DNA of 26,444 bases from contig CAMLSD010000071.1 in assembly GCA_946482595.1 (NCBI GenBank), positions 1 to 26,444 on the forward strand, given 5' to 3'. This DNA comes from an uncultured Comamonadaceae bacterium (lineage in GTDB: Bacteria > Pseudomonadota > Gammaproteobacteria > Burkholderiales > Burkholderiaceae). Positions 2-24,470 of the stretch are shown here, piece after piece. Position 1 is the stretch's first letter. Each line of letters begins with the position of its first letter. The notes below the pieces were generated by a model, which was given only the letters and a program-made list of their open reading frames with translations, was not told where the DNA came from and searched no databases. Position numbers and translations under genes: made by a program.

Positions 2-78
2 TGGCCTGCCCGGAGGGACTCGAACCCCCGACCTGCCGCTTAGAAGGCGGCTGCTCTATCCAGTTGAGCTACGGGCAG
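2..78 (-). tRNA. tRNA-Arg (anticodon UCU)
   Basis: Read on the minus strand this folds into a complete cloverleaf of 77 nt. The acceptor stem CTGCCCG pairs with CGGGCAG, and the canonical T8, A9 and G10 follow. The anticodon stem GCCGC/GCGGC encloses the loop CTTCTAA with anticodon TCT (plus-strand AGA at 42-44). The T arm is GGGGG-TTCGAGT-CCCTC, with one G-U pair. The CCA end is encoded (plus-strand TGG at 2-4). It reads AGA codons, which are rare in GC-rich genomes. It lies 103 bp downstream of the patatin gene on the same strand. A TAGAAT hexamer at 122-127 (minus) with a GC-rich stretch after it could be its -10 element, but I see no matching -35. Confidence 0.97.
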
Positions 79-19911: not shown

Positions 19912-21048
19912 ATGCAATTCAAACTGAACCTGATCGTGGGTGCTGCTGCGCTGACTCTGGCGGGCACGGCCATGGCACAGGAAGTCGTGAAGATCGGTCA
20001 CATCGGCCCGACCAGCGGCGGCATTGCCCACCTGGGCAAGGACAACGAAAACGGCGCCCGCATGGCCATCGACGAGCTGAACGCCAAGGGCGTGACGATC
20101 GGGGGCAAGAAGGTCAAGTTCGAGTTGCTCGCTGAGGACGATGCCGGTGATCCCAAGCAGGGCACCGCAGCCGCTCAGAAGCTGGTGGACTCCAAGGTCA
20201 ACGGCGTGATCGGCCACCTGAACTCGGGCACCACCATCCCGGCTTCCAAGATCTACAGCGACGCTGGCATTCCCCAGATCTCCCCGTCTGCCACCAACCC
20301 GAAGTACACCCGCCAAGGCTTCAAGACGGCCTTCCGCGTGGTGGCTGACGACGTGCACCTGGGCGGCACGCTGGGCCGTTATGCCGTCAAGGACCTGAAG
20401 GGCAAGTCCATCGCCGTCATCGACGACCGCACGGCCTACGGCCAGGGCGTCGCCGACGAGTTCGAGAAGGGCGTCAAGGGCGCGGGCGGCACCATCGTTG
20501 CTCGCGAATTCACCAACGACAAGGCAACGGACTTCACCGCCATCCTGACCTCCATCAAGGGCAAGAAGCCCGACGTGGTGTTCTACGGTGGCATGGACGC
20601 CGTGGCCGGTCCGATGCTGCGCCAGATGAAGTCGCTGGGCATCGAAGCCAAGTTCATGGGTGGCGATGGCATCTGCTCGGGCGAACTGCCCAAGCTGGCT
20701 GCCGGCACCATGGGTGACGGCCAGGTGGTGTGTGCTGAAGCCGGCGGTGTCGAAGGCTCGCAGAAGAAGGCCATGGACGACTTCAAGGCCGCCTTCAAGA
20801 AGAAGTTCAATGCCGACGTGCAGATCTACGCTCCGTACGTGTATGACGCCGTCAACACGATGGTGGCTGCCATGGTGAAGGCCGGTTCGACCGACCCCGC
20901 CAAGTACCTGCCTGAGCTGGCCAAGATCAAGCACACCGGCGTGACCGGCAACATCGAGTTCGACAACAAGGGCGACATCAAGAACGGCGCCCTGACCCTG
21001 TTCACCTACAAGGGTGGCAAGCGCGAACAGATTGCTGTGGTTCGCTGA
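19912..21048 (+). CDS. Branched-chain amino acid ABC transporter substrate-binding protein (LivJ/LivK-like)
   Basis: A 378-residue periplasmic binding protein. The signal peptide is clear (MQFKLNLIVGAAALTLAGTAMA, cleavage after residue 22). The mature part has the type I periplasmic-binding fold: VKIGHIGPTSGGIAHLGKDNENGARMAIDELNA, GVIGHLNSGTTIPASKIY, IPQISPSATNP, IDDRTAYGQGVADEF and YAPYVYDAVNTM. It collects leucine-type amino acids for an ABC importer. No permease or ATPase gene lies in this window, so it is a solitary binding protein that probably feeds a transporter encoded elsewhere. Codon use is strongly biased (AAG, CTG, GGC), and with the perfect AGGAGG and a strong terminator this suggests high expression. 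Confidence 0.96.
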   Translation: MQFKLNLIVGAAALTLAGTAMAQEVVKIGHIGPTSGGIAHLGKDNENGARMAIDELNAKGVTIGGKKVKFELLAEDDAGDPKQGTAAAQKLVDSKVNGVIGHLNSGTTIPASKIYSDAGIPQISPSATNPKYTRQGFKTAFRVVADDVHLGGTLGRYAVKDLKGKSIAVIDDRTAYGQGVADEFEKGVKGAGGTIVAREFTNDKATDFTAILTSIKGKKPDVVFYGGMDAVAGPMLRQMKSLGIEAKFMGGDGICSGELPKLAAGTMGDGQVVCAEAGGVEGSQKKAMDDFKAAFKKKFNADVQIYAPYVYDAVNTMVAAMVKAGSTDPAKYLPELAKIKHTGVTGNIEFDNKGDIKNGALTLFTYKGGKREQIAVVR

Positions 21049-21056
21049 TGATGCCC

Positions 21057-21077
21057 GCCCGGCCTGCATGGCCGGGC
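21057..21077 (+). repeat. Perfect 8-bp inverted repeat after the Liv gene
   Basis: GCCCGGCC (21057-21064), loop TGCAT, GGCCGGGC (21070-21077). It lies 8 bp after the stop codon and 20 bp before the true terminator. It has no T-run and probably protects the 3' end of the transcript or assists termination. Confidence 0.6.
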
Positions 21078-21097
21078 CTGTGTCACGCTTGAACGAC

Positions 21098-21122
21098 AAG
21101 GCGCCCTCGTGGCGCCTTTTTT
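21098..21122 (+). terminator. Rho-independent terminator of the Liv binding protein gene
   Basis: AAGGCGCC (21098-21105), loop CTCGT, GGCGCCTT (21111-21118), running into a stretch of six T (21117-21122). This is a textbook intrinsic terminator that isolates the Liv gene from the SOS promoter about 75 bp downstream. Confidence 0.93.
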
Positions 21123-21197
21123 CATGCCTGCACAGGCGCAGGCGAGATGTGTCCTGCTCGCTGCAGGGGCTGGAATTCCACGGGGCTTGCAGGGGAC

Positions 21198-21225
21198 TTG
21201 CAGGGCAGGGGCATTCGCATATACT
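21198..21225 (+). promoter_or_regulatory. Candidate sigma70 promoter of the radical SAM gene
   Basis: TTGCAG (21198-21203) and TATACT (21220-21225, 5 of 6 to consensus) are spaced by 16 bp. The -10 overlaps the left arm of the SOS box, so LexA binding would block RNA polymerase. A start near 21232 leaves a leader of about 20 nt with no visible Shine-Dalgarno. A second CTTGCAGGG copy lies 11 bp upstream. Confidence 0.6.
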
Positions 21226-21241
21226 GTGTTTTCATACAGTA
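21222..21241. promoter_or_regulatory. LexA (SOS) operator
   Basis: TACTGT (21222-21227), 8 bp, ACAGTA (21236-21241). Both half-sites match the LexA consensus CTGT-N8-ACAG exactly, including the flanking TA bases, and the symmetry extends one further pair (A at 21221, T at 21242). It ends 10 bp before the start codon of the radical SAM gene. Chance occurrence of such a match in this GC-rich DNA is very low. Confidence 0.92.
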
Positions 21242-21251
21242 TTCACCACGC

Positions 21252-22370
21252 ATGGCTGCCCCATCTGGAACGCCCCCGCTCAAGGGGCGCGGCACGTCGC
21301 TGAAGATCGCTCACCGCTTCGAGCGCACCGAACGTTCGGCCGCAGATGACGGCTGGGCACAGGGTTCGACGGAGCCTGTGCCCGATGATGCGGGTGACGC
21401 TCCGGCTCAAGCCGCCGCCGTCGGGCCGCACACCGAGGTGATGACCGAACAGGTCAAGTCCATCCTCAGTGAAAACGACTCACCCGACATCCCGTTCAGG
21501 CTCTCGATCAACCCGTATCGTGGCTGCGAACACGGGTGCATCTACTGCTACGCCCGGCCCACGCACAGCTACCTCGGCATGTCACCCGGGCTCGACTTCG
21601 AGACACGCCTGGTCGCCAAGGTCAATGCCGTCGAACGGCTGGAACATGAACTCTCGCGTCCGAGCTACGAGCCCAGCCCGATCAACATCGGCTCGGTGAC
21701 CGACGCCTACCAGCCCATTGAACGCAGGCTCAGGCTGACCCGGCGCCTGCTCGAACTGCTCGGCGACTGCCAGCACCCCTACACGATCATCACCAAGTCG
21801 GCCGGCATCGAGCGCGACATCGATCTCATCGGCGCGAGCGCACGCGCACGCCGGGCCCTCGTGTTCGTCAGCATCACCACGCTGGACCCAGCGCTGTGCC
21901 GCATCCTGGAGCCCCGCGCTGCAGCGCCCGCGCGGCGCCTGCAGACAGTGCGTCGGCTTGCCGATGCCGGGGTGCCGGTGGGCGTGAACGTGGCACCCAT
22001 CATTCCGTTCATCAACGAACCCGAGATCGAACGCCTGGTCGATGCGGCCGCGCAGGCTGGCGCCCGGTCCATCCACTACACCGTGCTTCGACTTCCCTGG
22101 GAGGTCAACCCACTGTTCCAGGACTGGCTCGCCACCCACTTTCCTGACCGTGCCGAGCGTGTCATGGCAAGGGTCCGTGACATGCGCGGCGGCACCGACT
22201 ACCGGGCTGAGTTCGGCCAGCGCATGAAGGGCACCGGCCTGTGGGCCGACCTGATCCGCCAGCGCATCGACAAGGCAGTGCGGCGCGCCGGACTCCGCCG
22301 CGAGACCCCTGCACTGGACAGCTCGGCCTTCACGCCGCCAAGGCAGGTAGGGCAGGGCAGGCTGTTCTGA
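21252..22370 (+). CDS. PA0069-family radical SAM protein (SplB-related), SOS-controlled
   Basis: A 372-residue radical SAM protein. The iron-sulfur cluster motif is CEHGCIYC (Cys92, Cys96, Cys99) in the context SINPYRGCEHGCIYCYARP. Downstream are GSVTDAYQPIER, TIITKSAGIERDI, FVSITTLDPALCRILEPRAAAPARR and GVNVAPIIPFINEPE, all hallmarks of the PA0069 family (COG1533, related to spore photoproduct lyase). A disordered, acidic N-terminus of about 65 residues precedes the catalytic domain. The reaction is unknown, though relation to SplB and SOS control suggest a response to DNA damage. I take the ATG at 21252; the open frame further upstream runs through the SOS promoter and the Liv terminator. 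There is no clear ribosome binding site. Confidence 0.94.
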   Translation: MAAPSGTPPLKGRGTSLKIAHRFERTERSAADDGWAQGSTEPVPDDAGDAPAQAAAVGPHTEVMTEQVKSILSENDSPDIPFRLSINPYRGCEHGCIYCYARPTHSYLGMSPGLDFETRLVAKVNAVERLEHELSRPSYEPSPINIGSVTDAYQPIERRLRLTRRLLELLGDCQHPYTIITKSAGIERDIDLIGASARARRALVFVSITTLDPALCRILEPRAAAPARRLQTVRRLADAGVPVGVNVAPIIPFINEPEIERLVDAAAQAGARSIHYTVLRLPWEVNPLFQDWLATHFPDRAERVMARVRDMRGGTDYRAEFGQRMKGTGLWADLIRQRIDKAVRRAGLRRETPALDSSAFTPPRQVGQGRLF

Positions 22371-22442
22371 CACCGGCGCATGGCGCCATGCGGGCGAACG
22401 CCGCTTAAGGCTGGCTTCACCCGCACGGCCCAGCATCGGTGC

Positions 22443-24470
22443 ATGGATCGCAAGAACTCTGTGCGCAGCTCGCTGCGCCATGGCCGCCAGTGGGTCTTGT
22501 CCGCACGCGATGTCCTGTTTGGCGGAATGCTGCACAACCTGCGGCCCATGCTGCTCGGCTTCCTGGGCGTCAACCTGGCGCTGCGCCTGGTTCTGGCGGC
22601 GGTCGCGGGCGAGCCGTCGTGGTGGCTGCCGTGGCGGCTGCTGCCGGCGTTGCTGATCGGCGCCGGGTTCGACCTGGCAGTTGCAAGCTTCATGATCGCG
22701 CCAGCGGCCCTGGTCCTGACGCTGTGGCCCACTCGCTGGCGCCGCGGTCTGCGGTGGCTGCTTCCTGCGGCATTCGTCCCGATCGCTCTGGCGTGCGTGT
22801 TTGTGGCCGTGGCCGAGTTCACGTTCTGGCAGGAATTCGCGTCGCGCTTCAACTTCATCGCCGTCGACTATCTCGTCTACACGAACGAGGTGATCGGCAA
22901 CATCCGCGAGTCCTACAACCTGCCGCTGCTGCTGGGCGGTGTGGTGGTCGGTGCGGCCTTGCTGTGGGCGTGGGTGGCGAAACGTCTTGTCCATGAACCG
23001 CTGGTCAGCCATGGTACGCCTCGCTTTTCGCGCCGCGCCGTGGCGGCCTGGCTTGCGTTGCCGCTGGTGGCAAGCGCTGCCATGGATGCCCGATACAAGT
23101 CGTTCTCGGACGACAGCCGGCTGAACGAACTGGCAGGCAATGGCTACTTCGACTTCTGGCACGCCTTCCGGCACAACGAGCTTGACTACGATCGCTTTTA
23201 TCTCACGATGCCTCGGGACCAGGCCCAGGCCGTGCTGGATTCGGAGCTTGGGCGTGCGGCCCCTGGGGCAACGACCGTGTACCGGGCCACCGAACGGGAG
23301 ATCCGCAACCCGGGGCCCGAGCAACATCTGAACGTCGTGATGGTGTCCGTCGAGAGCCTGAGTGCGGAGTTCATGGCGGCGTTCGGTGGCACACGCGGGC
23401 TCACACCCCACCTCGACGATCTGGCGTCGCGAGGGATGCTCTTCACGCAGGTGTATGCCACAGGGACCCGTACCGTGCGCGGGCTGGAGGCCTTGAGTCT
23501 GTCAGTCCCGCCCACCCCAGGCCACGCCATCATCAAGCGGGCCGACCATGCCGGGCTGTTCACGGCAGGCACGGTGTTCAGACAGAAGGGCTACGAGCCG
23601 ATCTTCCTCTATGGCGGCTACGGCTACTTCGACAACATGAATGCCTTCTACGGCAGCAATGGCTACACCGTCGTGGATCGCACGGCGCTGGATCGATCAC
23701 AGATCCACTTCGAGAACATCTGGGGCGTTGCCGACGAAGACCTCTTCGACCTGACGCTGCGCCAACTCGATGCGCGCGCTGCCGCGGGGCGCCCGTTTTT
23801 TGCGCACGTGATGACCACGTCGAACCATCGGCCGTTCAGCTACCCGGCTGGCCGCATCGACCTTCCCAGCGGCAGCGGGCGAGCCGGCGGCGTGAAGTAC
23901 ACGGACTGGTCGATCGGCCGCTTCATCCGGCAGGCCGAACAGCGCCCCTGGTTCCGGGACACGCTGTTCGTGATCGTGGCTGACCACACGCACAAGGCCC
24001 GGGGCCGGGTCGAACTGCCGCTGGAGAACTATCACATTCCCTTGATCGTGTTCAGCCCGGCGCATGTCGCGCCGCAGCGTGTCGACACACTGGCGTCGCA
24101 GATCGACGTTGCGCCGACGATCTTCGGCCTGCTGAACTTCAGCTACCGGTCCATGTTTTTTGGTCAGGACATCCTGCGTGAAGGACGTGAGCATCCTCGC
24201 GCCTTGCTGGCCAACTACCAGACGGTGGGGTATGTCGCCGACGGGATCGAAGTCGAGCTTCGCCCCAACCGTCAAAGCCGAGTGATCGATCTGGCCACCG
24301 GTCGAGCGCCGGCCGACGTCGAGGCCGGTCGTCGCGCGGTGCAACGAGCCGTTGCGCACTACCAGCTGGCCAGCCAGGCCTATCGCGATGGCCTGCTCAA
24401 GGAGCGCCATGACCTGGGAGGCAGCCAGGCCCGGGCCAGTGGCGGGGCAACCCAGGCCTTGCATCAATGA
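22443..24470 (+). CDS. LtaS-like membrane phosphoglycerol transferase/sulfatase family protein
   Basis: A 675-residue inner-membrane enzyme with an N-terminal block of about five membrane helices (about 35-210) and a C-terminal alkaline-phosphatase-fold domain in the periplasm. Metal and catalytic residues of the LtaS/OpgB family are visible: Glu304 in VVMVSVESLSAEF, probable nucleophile Thr344 in TGTRTVRGLEAL, and Asp514/His515 in VIVADHTHK. In Gram-negative bacteria such proteins transfer phosphoglycerol or phosphoethanolamine to glucans or envelope lipids, or act as hydrolases. The substrate here is unknown. The start is uncertain: ATG 22443 is used, with ATG 22380 and 22527 as alternatives. 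It begins 72 bp after the radical SAM gene on the same strand and could share its SOS promoter. Confidence 0.88.
   Translation: MDRKNSVRSSLRHGRQWVLSARDVLFGGMLHNLRPMLLGFLGVNLALRLVLAAVAGEPSWWLPWRLLPALLIGAGFDLAVASFMIAPAALVLTLWPTRWRRGLRWLLPAAFVPIALACVFVAVAEFTFWQEFASRFNFIAVDYLVYTNEVIGNIRESYNLPLLLGGVVVGAALLWAWVAKRLVHEPLVSHGTPRFSRRAVAAWLALPLVASAAMDARYKSFSDDSRLNELAGNGYFDFWHAFRHNELDYDRFYLTMPRDQAQAVLDSELGRAAPGATTVYRATEREIRNPGPEQHLNVVMVSVESLSAEFMAAFGGTRGLTPHLDDLASRGMLFTQVYATGTRTVRGLEALSLSVPPTPGHAIIKRADHAGLFTAGTVFRQKGYEPIFLYGGYGYFDNMNAFYGSNGYTVVDRTALDRSQIHFENIWGVADEDLFDLTLRQLDARAAAGRPFFAHVMTTSNHRPFSYPAGRIDLPSGSGRAGGVKYTDWSIGRFIRQAEQRPWFRDTLFVIVADHTHKARGRVELPLENYHIPLIVFSPAHVAPQRVDTLASQIDVAPTIFGLLNFSYRSMFFGQDILREGREHPRALLANYQTVGYVADGIEVELRPNRQSRVIDLATGRAPADVEAGRRAVQRAVAHYQLASQAYRDGLLKERHDLGGSQARASGGATQALHQ

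Follow-up and report, generated by a model that had tools for sequence, protein, structure and literature searches.

Genes annotated as splB, COG1533 or radical S-adenosylmethionine (SAM) proteins have been placed under SOS control in several bacterial groups. In the available parts of the papers concerned, splB was predicted to be regulated by LexA in alpha- and betaproteobacteria and was interpreted as a photoreactivation gene (PMC3323433), the same kind of control was reported for such genes in Bacteroidetes, Balneolaeota and Gram-positive bacteria (PMC3323433, PMC8565304, PMC7739468), a radical SAM protein was included in the SOS networks of Gram-positive bacteria and Balneolaeota (PMC7739468), a LexA table of S. 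venezuelae lists a radical SAM gene (PMC9380542), and SplB-like genes were found beside ImuB-C (PMC3765255). Here we describe a radical SAM gene of the PA0069 family (21252..22370, + strand, 372 amino acids) behind a predicted LexA operator in a contig of an uncultured Comamonadaceae bacterium (CAMLSD010000071.1; its 26,444 nucleotides, analyzed as a whole, are hereafter the window). An earlier note on this DNA had drawn attention to the locus. SOS control as such had already been published for splB, COG1533 and radical SAM genes, and the locus, judged from its sequence, follows the usual pattern of an SOS promoter, at a gene for which such control is known in outline. The published genes share this kind of control and are likened to ours by label, not by family; as far as its available text goes, PMC3323433 treats the gene as a photoproduct lyase, whereas we separated the PA0069 family from spore photoproduct lyase (SPL) and counted operators with controls. 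We found no open-licence paper that brings PA0069 and LexA together, and among the papers listed in our searches none described an enzymatic activity of the PA0069 family. PA0069 itself is presumably LexA-regulated in Pseudomonas aeruginosa.

The operator, TACTGTGTTTTCATACAGTA, matches TACTGT-N8-ACAGTA without mismatch at positions 21222..21241 (+ strand) and is kept upstream of orthologues. It was the sole match when the window was searched for the LexA palindrome with up to three mismatches (shuffled sequences gave a mean of 1.58), and arithmetic with equal base use gives a chance expectation of about 0.002 per 26 kb for a perfect 12-base match. The box overlaps the hexamer TATACT (21220..21225, +), a candidate -10 element, and is separated from the downstream ATG (21252) by 10 bp. 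Called mechanically, the open reading frame (ORF) extends upstream to 21147; the start at 21252 was preferred because of the family alignment and the position of the box. The earlier note had thus described the perfect palindrome, its overlap with TATACT and its distance from the ATG correctly, and its interval 21198..22370 does hold the promoter region and the gene. A sigma-70 consensus scan of 21040..22560 returned no full promoter site and no clear -35 element, so that the -10 reading comes from the TATACT hexamer; a TTGCAG-16-TATACT arrangement was spotted by eye only. The gene upstream, coding for a Peripla_BP_6 substrate-binding protein, lies on the + strand like the radical SAM gene, and an intrinsic-terminator-like hairpin follows at its 3' side (21098..21118, +; 8 pairs and a T tail, by consensus match only). 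Because the upstream gene is co-directional and ends in this hairpin, the box serves no divergent neighbour.

To place this operator in a wider context, we examined the regions upstream of orthologues in two samples. The first consisted of named records, the best 80 of at least 591 confirmed orthologous loci; since these are the closest relatives and by title mostly Burkholderiales, the sample is uneven. Among them, a perfect CTGT-N8-ACAG (C box) lay within 300 bp upstream in 55 loci, and 10 more had one mismatch, compared with 2 of 1,463 random windows of the same loci for the perfect box and 4.4% for one mismatch. Eight of the nine Pseudomonas-titled loci in this set carried a perfect box (L063-L066, L071, L072, L074, L080), the ninth (L079) having one mismatch. 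Two others of these 80 loci (L060, Gallionellaceae; L069, Nitrosomonadales) showed GAAC-N4-GTTC in its place, which we take to resemble a non-canonical LexA motif of Betaproteobacteria; as the motif was also present in 10 of 618 control regions, this is weak evidence. The second sample was drawn evenly from 299 Pseudomonadota genomes, of which 111 carried the gene, and all 111 upstream regions were analyzed, including three close to contig ends. A perfect LexA-type box was found within 250 bp upstream in 93 of them, comprising 29 C boxes and 64 GTTC-N7-GTTC (G boxes), the latter presumably the alphaproteobacterial LexA box; no locus had both, and a subset count gave 90 of 108 carriers. Controls, drawn jointly from the named loci and those of the 299 genomes, had a perfect C or G box in 6 of 618 regions upstream of other ORFs and in 18 of 3,430 random windows. 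The enrichment that the earlier note had proposed to look for is therefore present, and its suggestion that the control is conserved between beta- and gammaproteobacteria held for LexA-type boxes, with the G box being as common a type.

The regulator itself was searched for in the same genomes. A LexA match (TIGR00498, E below 1e-20) was obtained for 109 of the 111 carriers, compared with 123 of the 188 genomes lacking the gene. The two LexA-negative carriers, G035 and G120, are the genomes of loci L193 and L209, both of which have no clear operator; LexA may be missing there through incomplete assembly or because it is divergent. We also scanned four whole genomes (G001, G002, G004 and G006) for TACTGT-N8-ACAGTA with up to one mismatch and obtained 2, 11, 9 and 12 sites, the box of the gene included, as against 2, 4, 5 and 2 for the reversed pattern. 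Perfect sites numbered 0, 6, 2 and 5, and the box of the gene was perfect in G002 and G004.

The protein in the window matched NF033668 (rSAM_PA0069) over its full length (450.8 bits, cut-off 360, profile positions 1-348 of 348), bearing out the PA0069-type identity given in the earlier note. NF033668 is a hypothetical equivalog whose name specifies no reaction, and we found no difference from it. NF038135, the Rv2578c family of radical SAM proteins, matched residues 67-304 with 217 bits, well below its cut-off of 430, and is thus a sister family. The sole Pfam entry was PF04055 (50.3 bits), and the radical SAM domain contains the CxxxCxxC motif of the superfamily as C92-x3-C96-x2-C99 (CEHGCIYC, codons 21525..21548, +). 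These three cysteines were invariant in 46 aligned proteins and in 188 orthologues; in no other column was Cys present in more than 59 of the 188. In an AlphaFold2 model (mean predicted local distance difference test score 77.3, predicted template modelling score 0.79), the protein has the SPL fold, with SPL as the closest solved structure (PDB 4fhc-4fhg, 4k9r, 4rh0); the alignment spans model residues 31-352, of which 31-58 are poorly predicted.

Family membership in SPL is a different matter. The PA0069 family resembles SPL in its fold, in CxxxCxxC and in the conserved T/S-D that follows the catalytic position. It differs in residues that we take to be central to SPL chemistry, namely Cys140, presumably the hydrogen donor, and Tyr98, whose role is likewise assumed here. 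On 4fhc, the cluster cysteines correspond to positions 90, 94 and 97 and the Tyr that comes next to 98; the Cys of EAACTSD corresponds to 140. This numbering assumes 27 extra residues at the chain start and is consistent with PDB titles naming C140 and Y98 mutants. A profile-profile alignment placed S-C-Y-T-D of SPL on G-S-V-T-D of the window protein, and hence Cys140 on Ser148 (codon 21693..21695, +), with a probability of 90.7%. Among the 188 orthologues this position was occupied by T (76), S (37), V (32), I (16), A (16), G (7), M (3) or P (1) and never by Cys, and at the position of Tyr98, 126 of them had Phe and the other 62 Tyr. Since no orthologue has a counterpart of Cys140 and only the cluster cysteines are invariant, the hydrogen-return route of SPL is not common to the family. 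Moreover, PF20903 (SPL) did not match the window protein, and TIGR04070 was missing from its NCBIfam matches at E 0.001. The relation to SplB asserted in the earlier note therefore holds at the level of the fold, but membership in the SPL family was rejected because of the Cys140 position and the absence of PF20903. Keeping the two families apart removes a misleading label.

Taken together, these data led us to favour, as the probable explanation, an SOS-induced radical SAM enzyme with an SPL-like fold that would repair a nucleic-acid lesion other than the spore photoproduct. The gene would belong to the SOS regulon as a stand-alone unit: LexA bound to the operator would cover the -10 region and block transcription, and DNA damage, through RecA-stimulated cleavage of LexA, would free it. 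From the motif and fold we infer that C92, C96 and C99 hold a [4Fe-4S] cluster with which the enzyme would generate a 5'-deoxyadenosyl radical, most likely applied to damaged nucleic acid so that a lesion of vegetative cells is reversed or processed; as the hydrogen-returning Cys of SPL is absent, the reaction would have to end by another route. The earlier note's idea of an enzyme repairing or sensing a lesion that is so far undescribed is plausible. With the family under more than one class of damage operator and present in 111 of 299 genomes, this lesion could be frequent in bacteria and still lack a named repair enzyme.

Several observations weigh against this explanation. The identity between the window protein and SPL is 13-14%, and a shared fold leaves the substrate unfixed; the single window protein matched no PDB chain, SPL was not listed by the family profile search at E up to 1, and the assignment of Cys140 to Ser148 comes from one profile-profile match at 90.7%, so that the counterpart should be regarded as predicted. 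On the regulatory side, 18 of the 111 carriers lacked a perfect C or G box in the 250 bp upstream. Three of these carried the Xanthomonadales element described below and one (L155) TTAG-N6-TACTA, leaving 14 without an operator in that range. A second look at these misses only, so that hits there have no matched control, located a perfect box at 250-500 bp in L107, L110, L140 and L189, a G box with one mismatch in L114, L115, L116 and L134, and the Xanthomonadales element with one mismatch in L172. About five loci (L167, L185, L191, L193 and L209) remained without a clear operator; L193 has a one-mismatch G box and L167 scores 12/14 for the palindrome described below, either of which may be chance. 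Finally, the site count in G001, one of the four genomes scanned, equals that of the reversed control (2 vs 2). This last count also speaks for regarding the LexA box as a chance occurrence or as belonging to another gene, an idea that we consider hardly credible given conservation far above controls, the lack of a conserved neighbour and, in the window, a co-directional upstream gene ending in a terminator-like hairpin. In its general form, this idea is refuted by the counts of 93 of 111 against 6 of 618.

Two explanations of the function had a stronger case. The splB label implies an SPL of vegetative cells that splits UV-made 5-thyminyl-5,6-dihydrothymine, and the available text of PMC3323433 reads the gene likewise. 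The fold agrees with this, as do weak TIGR04070 matches (19-25 bits, cut-off 400) that in nine genomes fall within the PA0069-family gene, but the position of Cys140, never Cys in the orthologues, the prevalence of Phe at that of Tyr98 and the absence of PF20903 make it improbable. Moreover, a separate, Cys-bearing SPL family occurs in 3 of the 299 genomes (L213-L215; full-length TIGR04070 matches of 254-282 bits, cut-off 400), each of which also carries the PA0069 gene. These proteins retain Cys in S-C-Y-T/A-D (for L213, PF20903 scored 272 bits and 4fhc 210 bits), and their genes, only three in number, have no perfect LexA box in the 300 bp upstream, although that of L214 is preceded by GTTC-N7-GTTC with one mismatch. 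An enzyme acting outside DNA, modifying RNA, a protein or the nucleotide pool during the damage response, appeared to us somewhat less unlikely than an SPL, though still doubtful: SPL leads the fold comparison by 5 Z units, with an alignment over model residues 31-352, and two operator kinds group the gene with DNA-repair genes. A nucleic-acid repair enzyme distinct from SPL thus remained our preferred explanation. As a separate observation, a further SPL-like family is represented by L217 (1285-2352, - strand), which matches PF20903 with 112 bits and by eye also has no catalytic Cys.

In Xanthomonadales, the gene was associated with another element. Five of the named loci, from Rhodanobacter, Dyella, Luteibacter and Frateuria (L058, L061, L075, L077, L078), had no LexA box and instead showed TCGC-N5-CTGAGAC before the start, exactly in the first four and with one mismatch in L078. 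Earlier patterns with N6 spacing or an added GCG were discarded because they did not stand out clearly from the reversed control and missed the radical SAM gene. Without mismatches, TCGC-N5-CTGAGAC gave 12 sites in the five genomes and the reversed pattern one. Four sites were at the radical SAM gene, others preceded rmuC and hrcA (identified by eye), and one was about 220 bp before the start of UvrA, confirmed by family search on a sequence cut at the end of its locus (L268). Across 151 Xanthomonadales genomes, the pattern combined with -10-like A and T occurred 57 times, versus 10 for its reverse. The downstream genes, read directly for 54 sites and by coordinates for three more radical SAM genes, were radical SAM (19, one of them the truncated copy L324), recA (7), rmuC (4), radA (3), ssb (2), ligA (1) and dnaE2 (1), the other 20 being other or unassigned genes. 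Family searches confirmed representatives of RecA, SSB, LigA, RadA, RmuC and error-prone DNA polymerase, the last cut at the locus end and scoring below cut-off. Loci with such sites include L278 (recA), L279 (ligA), L281 (ssb), L282 (dnaE2), L290 (rmuC) and L326 (radA). For the radA of L330 and the ssb of L280, the ORF picker had chosen another frame, and these two were assigned because their site and reading frame resemble those of L327 and L281. The distance from pattern to start was 5-7 bp for the listed radical SAM genes and about 25-35 bp for recA, and it reached about 130 bp for ssb and rmuC.

These sites conform to the palindrome GTCKCAG-N3-CTGMGAC. A first count, with 10 of 11 radical SAM regions at 11/14 or more, was circular because most of these regions had revealed the motif, and gene copies were therefore picked by family instead. 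The radical SAM gene was found in 83 of the 151 genomes, at 85 places, and the palindrome was counted at 70 of these copies (L338-L407); the 15 lowest-scoring copies were omitted, some copies overlap the earlier genes, and kinship is uncorrected. A score of at least 11/14 was reached by 47 of the 70 copies and 132 of 1,531 control windows, a score of at least 12/14 by 38 and 48, respectively, and exact TCGC-N5-CTGAGAC was present in 21 copies and one control window. LexA-type boxes were present at 10 of the 70 (five CTGT-N8-ACAG, four of the TTAG-N6-TACTA type and one GTTC-N7-GTTC), with L360 having such a box as well as a palindrome at 14.

Evidence on the identity of the regulator came from lexA itself, which in four genomes (L331-L334) carries palindromes of the TTAGTAGTA type. 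In L331, L332 and L333, the recA gene beside it carries variants of the other palindrome with 1, 3 and 2 mismatches. Because lexA has an operator of its own type and the adjoining recA the other, a second damage regulator likely acts beside LexA in Xanthomonadales, and the palindrome would give it a concrete operator. For the same reason the palindrome is disfavoured as a LexA operator, and it is only conceivable that LexA binds both TTAGTAGTA-type and GTCKCAG-N3-CTGMGAC sites. Competence regulons, too, can include recA, ssb and radA, and an operator for natural competence is likewise conceivable. We found no description of this system in open-licence papers, a search that did not include the motif letters. 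As far as the partially available sources describe them, PafBC of mycobacteria and DriD of Caulobacter likewise control damage genes outside LexA. It is possible, and we put it forward tentatively as somewhat short of an even chance, that the PA0069 family reverses a common, undescribed DNA lesion without the Cys of SPL and that the second regulator took over its gene together with recA, ssb, radA, rmuC, ligA and dnaE2. If so, the function would have been important enough to be taken over where Xanthomonadales moved repair genes off LexA.

Some further observations concern the Xanthomonadales element. In L314, L318 and L319, it is directly followed by genes for short proteins, membrane-bound by eye, which by their position are candidates for damage-induced division inhibitors; the L314 protein had no match in Pfam. 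Genome G096 has a truncated radical SAM copy (L324) behind the element, about 550 bp upstream of the intact copy of L155, which is preceded by the TTAG-N6-TACTA box.

No operon partner that might hint at a function emerged from the neighbourhood of the gene. Among 870 neighbouring ORFs at 188 loci, no conserved partner gene was found, the widest family being present in 17 loci; as the ORFs had been picked roughly, by taking the longest frame, some of the families probably represent antisense frames. A ribonuclease HII-like gene, identified by eye, lies downstream in 16 loci including L093, and most of those inspected have a GTTC-N7-GTTC box. One partial match was obtained among 50,697 phage records (E up to 1e-10), and matches at E up to 1e-30 were obtained in 27 plasmid records, of which 24 belonged to alphaproteobacterial genera. 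In the window, the radical SAM gene is followed by a sulfatase-domain gene (PF00884; 22380..24470, +, start probably near 22443). Because no terminator-like site was found between the two on the + strand, SOS read-through into the sulfatase-domain gene is possible. At the edge of the window, a tRNA gene occupies positions 5..78 (- strand).
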